From contig JAFBAF010000103.1 in assembly GCA_019247895.1 (NCBI GenBank), forward strand, positions 1 to 54,513: a stretch of DNA of 54,513 bases. The letters are read 5' to 3'. This DNA is from Parafilimonas sp. (GTDB taxonomy: Bacteria; Bacteroidota; Bacteroidia; Chitinophagales; Chitinophagaceae). The stretch's first letter is position 1. Each line of letters starts with the position of its first letter. This document shows, piece by piece, positions 8,976 to 18,731 of the stretch. Under the pieces are notes generated by a model that was given only the letters and a program-made list of their open reading frames with translations, was not told the origin of the DNA and ran no database searches. The translations under genes and the position numbers were made by a program.

Positions 8976-9233
8976 AAATTCTGTACTTTTTAGGTGAAAT
9001 AAAAGTAAAAACGAACGGGCTGTGCATTTTGTTACTTATGCTGAGTGGCAATTAATAAGGATTATTGGATTATCAGCTGTCACAAATCAATTGCAATCTT
9101 TTATGATTACGCTTTTATTCATTAAGTAAAAATGATGTTCAATAAGAATGTTTTTGCAAATAGTGCAGTGTTTGCCACTTTCCTTGAAAAAAGAATGTAA
9201 AGCATTTACCGAGGCAAACAAACCAATAATGCA

Positions 9234-9310
9234 AGACAAAGTAATCAAAGAATTTAAGGTAAACATGAACGCCCCGCGCACTGCCTTGCCAACGCCTCCT
9301 TCAGCAATAT
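9234..9310. repeat. Decayed copy of the intergenic repeat core found at 17516-17583
   Basis: GTAATCAAAGAATTTAAGGTAAACATGAACGCCCCGCGCACTGCCTTGCCAACGC vs GTAACCAAAGAAAAATCAAGGCAAACATGAACGCTCCGCGCATTTGCCTTGCCAACGC. Confidence 0.7.
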
Positions 9311-16775: not shown

Positions 16776-17480
16776 ATGAAATTTTATGTGCTGTTAATTG
16801 CGTGCTTGTCTGCATGTATGTTATCTTATGCTCAAATGAATGCTCCAACATCTTATGAAGCCGATAAAAGCTTACAGTTTTACATTGGGCTTGGCGGTGG
16901 ATACAATAACTATAAAAACTTAAATGCAAGTTTTGAAAATGCAGACTTACCGGCAGTTGGAAAATATGCTTTGCTGACTACGCTTGAAGCAAACATTCGT
17001 AACAAAAATTTATTGATCGGGTTAACCGGCAATATGGGTGCATCATTCAGAAAACCAGATCATTTTAACGTGCTCCTCAATTTTAACCCGCAGGTAAATG
17101 TTGGATATTATATTGTGAATGATAAAAAATTTCACTTTGCGCCGCAGGTTGGCATCGGCGCTTATTCATCTTCTGTGAATATTGAACAAAAAGATAATGC
17201 CGGCGATTTTAATGATGTGCTTGCAAATGGTAATGCCATAAGCATTAATCAAAATGTTGCAGCGTTAGATTTTTGCCTGCGGTTTGATTTTGCAGATTAC
17301 ACTAAACCACAAACCGGCGCCACAAGTATTAAACTTGGGTATAAGCATGGACTAAGCAAACGCGGCTGGGGCATTGATGCAACAAGCAATTCAACAATAA
17401 ATAATTCTCCTGAAGATCGCGTTAGCCAGTTTTATTTGCAATTTTTAGTTGGAGTTGCGTTACAAAAACCAAAGCATTAA
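16776..17480 (+). CDS. Putative outer-membrane beta-barrel protein, unknown function
   Basis: Signal peptide MKFYVLLIACLSACMLSYA; GLGGGYNNYKN...FHFAPQVGIGAYSS alternating pattern. Confidence 0.65.
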   Translation: MKFYVLLIACLSACMLSYAQMNAPTSYEADKSLQFYIGLGGGYNNYKNLNASFENADLPAVGKYALLTTLEANIRNKNLLIGLTGNMGASFRKPDHFNVLLNFNPQVNVGYYIVNDKKFHFAPQVGIGAYSSSVNIEQKDNAGDFNDVLANGNAISINQNVAALDFCLRFDFADYTKPQTGATSIKLGYKHGLSKRGWGIDATSNSTINNSPEDRVSQFYLQFLVGVALQKPKH

Positions 17481-17482
17481 AT

Positions 17483-17832
17483 GTTACTTTCTTTATCTTG
17501 ATACAAAGAAAGTAACCAAAGAAAAATCAAGGCAAACATGAACGCTCCGCGCATTTGCCTTGCCAACGCTCCCTCTGTGCAATTGGTGAAGTAATAATTA
17601 TTATGGTTAACGATTAACAATAAGGCCAATTTCATTACATAATCCATATTCATAAAAAATAAAGCTCGATTGCTGAAAAATCTTTAGCACAAAAGCTTAA
17701 TCAGGCGAATGAAAAAAAGTGCTGAAATCGAAGATCCGCAAAGACAGATGAAAAACAAATACGCACTTTGCAATCTCTTTTTTTCTTGAACTTTTTTGGT
17801 TACTTTTTTTCTCTTGAAAGAAAAAAAGTAAC
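17483..17832. repeat. MITE-like intergenic repeat with hairpin-containing inverted ends
   Basis: Left end GTTACTTTCTTT..AAAGAAAGTAAC (17483-17516); right end GTTACTTTTTTTCT..AGAAAAAAAGTAAC (17799-17832); ends are inverted relative to each other; internal stem CAAGGCAAA/TTTGCCTTG. Confidence 0.7.
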
Positions 17833-17894
17833 AGAACTGTAATTATGCAATAGATATATTTCCTTTTATCTTTATCGCTTAAAAAACCATTGCC

Positions 17895-18731
17895 ATGATG
17901 AAGAAATTAGTACTTTCTATTGCACTTGCAACAATTCTATTTTGTTTTAGCAAAGCGCAAAATCTAACTACGCCGCAAATTTCAACAACTGAAGAAATCA
18001 AGCAGAACTTTGGTTTATCACAAATTGAAGTTTCGTACTCAAGACCTGGCGTTAAAGGCCGCAAAATATTTGGTGATCTTGTGCCTTATGGCAAAGTTTG
18101 GAGAACAGGCGCAAACAATGCTACAACAATCACTTTTGGAGATGATGTAACTATCAACGCAACAAAAATACCTGCCGGTAAATATGGTTTGCTAACTATT
18201 CCCGGTGAAAGCGAATGGACTGTTATCATTACAAAGCAGACTGATGTTACCAATGCTTCTGCATACAAACAAGACCAGGATGTGTTGCGTATTCCTGTTA
18301 AACCTTACACGCTTCCTTTTCCTATTGAAACATTTACCATAAGTTTTAATGACATTACCAACAATAGTTGCAAACTGGAATTAATGTGGGACAATATTTA
18401 TGTGCATGTACCAATTACAACAGATGTTGATACAAAAGTGATGGCACAGATAAAAGATGTAATGAATAATGACAACAAGCCATATTTTGGAGCAGCAGTT
18501 TATTATATTGAAAACGGTAAAGATCTAAACCAGGCCGTTGAGTGGTTGGATAAAGCAATCGCTCAAAACCCTGATGCATATTACATGTATTATCAAAAAG
18601 CAAGAGCATTGGCAAAGCTTGGCAAGAAACAAGATGCGATCACAGCATCAAACAAATCTATTGAGCTTGCAAAACAAGCAAAGAACGATGACTATGTTGC
18701 ATTGAATGAGAAGCTGCAAAAAAGCTTGTAA
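17895..18731 (+). CDS. DUF2911 domain protein with C-terminal TPR-like repeats
   Basis: ISTTEEIKQNFGLSQIEVSYSRPGVKGRKIFGDLVPYGKVWRTGANNATTITF; NPDAYYMYYQKARALAKLGKKQDAITA. Confidence 0.88.
   Translation: MMKKLVLSIALATILFCFSKAQNLTTPQISTTEEIKQNFGLSQIEVSYSRPGVKGRKIFGDLVPYGKVWRTGANNATTITFGDDVTINATKIPAGKYGLLTIPGESEWTVIITKQTDVTNASAYKQDQDVLRIPVKPYTLPFPIETFTISFNDITNNSCKLELMWDNIYVHVPITTDVDTKVMAQIKDVMNNDNKPYFGAAVYYIENGKDLNQAVEWLDKAIAQNPDAYYMYYQKARALAKLGKKQDAITASNKSIELAKQAKNDDYVALNEKLQKSL

Follow-up and report, generated by a model that had tools for sequence, protein, structure and literature searches.

A probable MITE-like repeat built from two structured units, and its tail module with a candidate pseudoknot, in Parafilimonas sp. 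and other Bacteroidota

The composite repeat and its two units

The window (the whole stretch of 54,513 nucleotides analysed here) contains a non-coding composite repeat of 352 bp, flanked by a 234-aa ORF that ends at 17480 and by a gene at 17895-18731 (Table 1). The ORF list of the window holds no ORF of at least 80 aa between 17481 and 17894, and an earlier note on this DNA saw none above the threshold of its own list. Both terminal hairpins which that note described are present. The left hairpin has a stem of 12 bp on the plus strand; on the minus strand the plus-strand A.C mismatch becomes a G-U pair and the stem reaches 14 bp, with hexaloop AUCAAG. The right hairpin likewise has a stem of 14 bp. 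The ends form an imperfect inverted repeat of 42 nt (17482-17523 / 17792-17833, 79% identity), which ranks first among the inverted repeats of the whole window. The claim of imperfect inverted ends (given as ~48 bp) therefore stands, with the correction that more is involved than a single arm present twice: the ends are the tails of two different units. No target duplication is visible at the window copy, in agreement with the same source. On either strand the fold of the stretch is more stable than those of its dinucleotide shuffles (z -3.5, 0/100 shuffles as good), and single units from the window and elsewhere, folded alone, give z values of -2.7 to -5.0.

Table 1. Positions of the composite repeat, its parts and a second unit in the window.
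Feature	Coordinates	Strand	Remarks
Whole composite, A(-)/spacer/B(+)	17482..17833	.	352 bp; aligns through the spacer with the copy at G000:C346, 71%
Unit A: head CACAGAGGGAGCGTTGGC, P1 stem, tail module	17483..17579	-	97 bp
Hairpin 2 (S2), unit A	17483..17516	-	hexaloop ATCAAG on minus (plus 17497-17502 CTTGAT)
CTTGAT, unit A	17526..17531	-	complements hairpin 2 hexaloop (helix S1); exact core-pattern match
P1 stem, unit A	17528..17562	-	17528-17536 pairs with 17554-17562; loop has GCGCGGAGCG
Spacer between units A and B	17580..17659	.	conservation weak
Unit B, long-loop variant (~50 nt extra in P1 loop)	17660..17833	+	covariance model R1, 94.2 bits; 174 bp
P1 stem, unit B	17711..17785	+	17711-17719 pairs with 17777-17785
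CTTGAA, 5' strand of S1 in unit B	17785..17790	+	sequence
Hairpin 2, unit B	17799..17832	+	loop CTTGAA (inverted), not TTCAAG
Second A unit, degenerate	9172..9303	-	hairpin interrupted by ~48-bp foreign repeat (about 9196-9241)

The element consists of two related structured units placed head to head, A on the minus and B on the plus strand. In unit A a head (CACAGAGGGAGGCG) is followed by the stem P1 and then by a tail. The head of unit B is unlike that of A; it is followed by a P1 of its own, with the loop TGCTGAATAT or a long variant, and by the same tail as in A. The two ends of the element are these shared tails, and the inner parts differ. In both units the tail is a ~48-nt module made up of CTTGAN, a U-rich linker and a hairpin with hexaloop NTCAAG, which is complementary to the CTTGAN just 5' of the linker (helix S1). 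This helix is intact in the A copy of the window. The B copy cannot form S1, or the pseudoknot, because its loop is inverted (CTTGAA for TTCAAG), and for this reason the window copy appears to be in decay.

Distribution and covariation of the fold

A BLAST search of the host genome, as the earlier note had proposed, returned further copies with E values down to 1.5e-18, and copies were also found in most genomes of the genus and in two other genera. A covariance model of unit B found copies in 7 of the 8 genus genomes and 35 copies in a sister genus; none was found in the near complete genome G005. Nearly all copies are intergenic. Single A and single B units are commoner than composites, of which ~10 with the A-/B+ arrangement were found, the tails pointing outward in every one; one of them, at C346, can be aligned with the window copy through the spacer. 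Two observations had been named that would speak against an element. Single-copy status is contradicted by these copies, whilst copies lacking the paired ends do exist, many single units having no second end. The second partial copy reported in the window corresponds to the interrupted A unit of Table 1.

The repeat which interrupts that unit (AAATGCGAAGCATTCATCGAGGCAA...ATGCACGAGATAAA) lies within unit arms or loops in the window and at loci L187, L197, L178 (6704-6878), L029 (3568-3709) and L182, often at the same spot of the tail hairpin, as if targeting units. It has 16 copies in the fetched loci, a biased share since these loci were picked for units. Another dispersed repeat (CTGAACC.CGATTT..GGATTAA.GGATTA.C.GGATT) is found upstream of several B units (L033, L203, L161, L164). 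B units also occur at the same gene positions across species (L168, L185 and L203; L030 and L186), where their P1 stems differ and are still paired.

The tail extends well past these genera. The matches listed in a pattern scan of genome contigs include several classes of Bacteroidota and one Ignavibacteriae MAG. At least nine unrelated heads can precede the tail, for the most part in Bacteroidota. One core match came from a Fusobacteriota plasmid of Ilyobacter. The exact core is both rare and patchy, with matches in 2 of 396 phylum genomes. The Bacteroidales form had no match in phages, and the exact core was absent from viral contigs, in which a looser core occurred twice with another head and a 16-mer of the Bacteroidales head gave unrelated matches only. 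The Bacteroidales head itself (L211, L222, L231) is a strongly conserved element of ~215 nt; it contains a hypervariable hairpin and may form pairings over a long range (AATTTTGGG with CCCAAAATT). Rfam gave no match for the window stretch (E up to 5) or for 12 loci with various heads, and the repeat family was not mentioned in the PMC text searched.

The compensatory base changes expected of a structured RNA are present. Over P1 and S2 in 17 B copies, 17 pairs were changed on both sides versus 8.7 in shuffles (here and for S1 below, the shuffle values are not to be read as probabilities, since the copies are related); sliding the pairing partners destroys this covariation. Other A copies carry P1 stems of different sequence that remain paired. 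For the N-N pair of S1, 50 of 51 B copies match, versus 17 in shuffles; over all heads, the 149 distinct tails include 141 with a Watson-Crick pair and a further 3 with G-U. Double variants of S1 occur, such as CTTCAC/GTGAAG. A pair count that includes the pseudoknot over 35 tails agrees with the S1 covariation, only its free positions being informative as most of these tails were fetched by a pattern that fixes most letters. Moreover, G-U outnumbers A-C on the unit strand, by 16 to 6 in P1 and by 51 to 5 in the TCAA/TTGA helix, the latter largely from one lineage. This is therefore probably the strand that folds. Judged by these substitutions, an H-type pseudoknot or a kissing switch appears to be selected. 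The suggestion of a structured-RNA repeat, which had been offered as an alternative to a mobile element, thus gains support from the covariation of P1, hairpin and loop-to-flank pairing, together with the strand-specific preference for G-U.

Telomerase RNA and ENE triple helices offer known H-type pseudoknots in which a U-rich loop faces an A-rich stem. As in these, the U-rich linker and purine 3' arm of the tail stand in the required parallel order. Unlike in these, almost no linker separates the loop from the 3' arm, a constraint on a classical H-type fold. In each of 128 copies, three of them discordant, the C/T of the linker follows the G/A of the 3' arm; the linker/arm tract is nearly mirror-symmetric, so that parallel (Hoogsteen) and antiparallel (Watson-Crick) pairing are inseparable in this count. 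A triple helix of the linker with the purine arm is thus a possibility.

Mobility and alternative explanations

In the sister genus (G010), unit B lies inside elements of about 275-302 bp with a 14-bp TIR, AACGTGAGTTTTGG. Flanking repeats of at least 4 bp were found at 7 of 15 elements versus 1.9 expected (p 0.001 against shuffled flanks), and on this evidence they are apparent target duplications and the elements apparent MITEs. In many G010 copies (L140-L143, L146-L149) an inserted GC-rich hairpin, CCTGTCCCGGACTTGTTACGGGG, separates the hexaloop of the tail hairpin from its 3' arm; other copies there have ACGCAACC..GGTTGCC in the 5' arm. In Cecembia rubra and C. lonarensis (L324 versus L329) the element occupies an orthologous neighbourhood in opposite orientations, which would have arisen by inversion or by separate insertion. 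Genome G007, with the nearest ortholog of the downstream gene, has no element there; homology begins just past the element end, and the upstream gene differs. In G006 (L373), a gene judged by eye to be IS630-type transposase-like lies upstream of the ortholog of 17895-18731, where the window has the repeat. Neither locus is a clean empty site.

A TIR search of G010 allowing up to 2 mismatches found no TIR pair around any gene, and hence no parent IS; no transposase recurs among the neighbour genes of the units. The conserved module lies inside the elements, not at their ends, in both G010 and Cecembia, and the TIRs differ between lineages. For these two reasons the module is probably more than a transposase's end.

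Taken together, we consider it likely that the stretch is a non-autonomous dispersed MITE-like element of two structured units head to head, moved in trans and dependent on its fold. It is short, non-coding and multi-copy, and it has terminal inverted repeats, which are 42 nt and imperfect in the window and take the form of the 14-bp TIR in G010. A transposase acting in trans would move the elements. A single strand of each unit would fold into P1 and the hairpin, whose hexaloop would pair with the sequence immediately 5' of the linker, either as a pseudoknot or as a mutually exclusive switch. This fold would be needed by a protein or would decide what becomes of a transcript. We infer that the window copy itself has been mobile. 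The earlier note, which proposed a MITE-like dispersed element with hairpins inside its own inverted ends, was mostly right, as the copies, the recurrent A-/B+ composites and the TIRs and apparent target duplications of the sister genus bear out. It missed that the two units have separate lives, that the tail is found phylum-wide with many unrelated heads and that the hairpin loop complements the sequence preceding it.

The main rival to a mobile element is a functional structured RNA module, acting in cis in untranslated regions or as a small RNA, for which mobility would be secondary. We hold this to be possible, though unlikely. It would account for the compensatory changes and loop-to-flank covariation seen across the phylum, for the strand specificity of the G-U preference, for B units that keep orthologous positions in three species with P1 changed yet paired, and for a conserved module that is internal in elements with different TIRs. 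B copies between co-directional genes are more often sense (34 versus 14); however, this bias is weak in a wider set (31 versus 22) and is suggestive only. Moreover, the distance to starts or stops is not fixed, no target gene recurs, and the patchy presence described above, with no unit in G005, also speaks against such a role.

An identity of the units as REP/BIME sequences, with a RAYT (Y1) transposase as their mover, is improbable. As in REP/BIME sequences, intergenic palindromes are paired in opposite orientation, here with a conserved single-strand fold, and Y1_Tnp genes exist in many of these genomes. However, none of 30 Y1_Tnp loci had a tail within ~1.5 kb. Presence is also uncoupled, since G001 (an incomplete genome) and G003 have 6-10 units and no Y1_Tnp match, whilst G005 has 3 Y1_Tnp matches and no unit. 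Units of about 100-300 bp (97-174 bp in the window) with no Y1 gene nearby are, finally, much larger than REPs, put at 20-40 bp in PMC3733652. RAYT/REP was rejected on the lack of flanking units at Y1_Tnp loci and on this uncoupling.

A relic of a guide RNA or retroelement, that is a TnpB/IscB omega RNA or an RNA mobilised by a reverse transcriptase through a conserved 3' tail, is more doubtful still. The conserved 3' tail with exchangeable 5' heads does recall SINE-LINE or omega-RNA layouts, yet the TnpB domain PF07282 occurs in 0 of 7 unit-bearing genus genomes, RVT_1 is absent from G000, G003 and G007, and Rfam returned nothing. TnpB omega RNA and reverse transcriptase were rejected because their domains are absent from most or all of the bearers tested. 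Lastly, ordinary intrinsic terminators, alike by composition only, would also be intergenic A/T-rich hairpins, and we rejected them as the least credible candidate: no terminator-like site (a GC-rich hairpin followed by a T run) lies in 17400-17960, no T run follows the hairpin, the composite tails point outward and homology reaches well beyond the hairpins.

Relation to known repeats and significance

Like bacterial MITEs, the element is short, non-coding, multi-copy and intergenic, and its sister-genus copies have TIRs and what appear to be target duplications. Unlike them, it has an internal fold with loop-to-flank pairing that is conserved phylum-wide, its TIRs differ between lineages and its parent IS was not found. 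BOX elements of Streptococcus pneumoniae and similar modular repeats may also be likened to the element: they have stable stem-loops and are presumably mobilised in trans. They differ from it in sequence and host, and for the present element the compensatory stems and a pseudoknot-type helix have been measured.

More speculatively, and with less confidence than the identity of the element itself, the tail may be an undescribed pseudoknotted, possibly triple-helical RNA or ssDNA module carried by unrelated miniature mobile elements from Bacteroidota to Ignavibacteria and Fusobacteriota. It would combine with interchangeable 5' heads and would be kept because a conserved host or trans-acting factor recognises the fold. 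We regard this wider proposal as tentative and rather unlikely as a whole.

These data describe an intergenic repeat class of Chitinophagaceae and relatives that has no Rfam match. MITE-like repeats themselves are known; what is new is such a repeat with a phylum-wide, pseudoknot-capable fold. MITEs in general have to keep their ends only, whereas here the internal fold and the loop-to-flank helix are kept across the phylum while ends and heads change. The kept fold points to a factor acting on it and gives a testable sequence signature.
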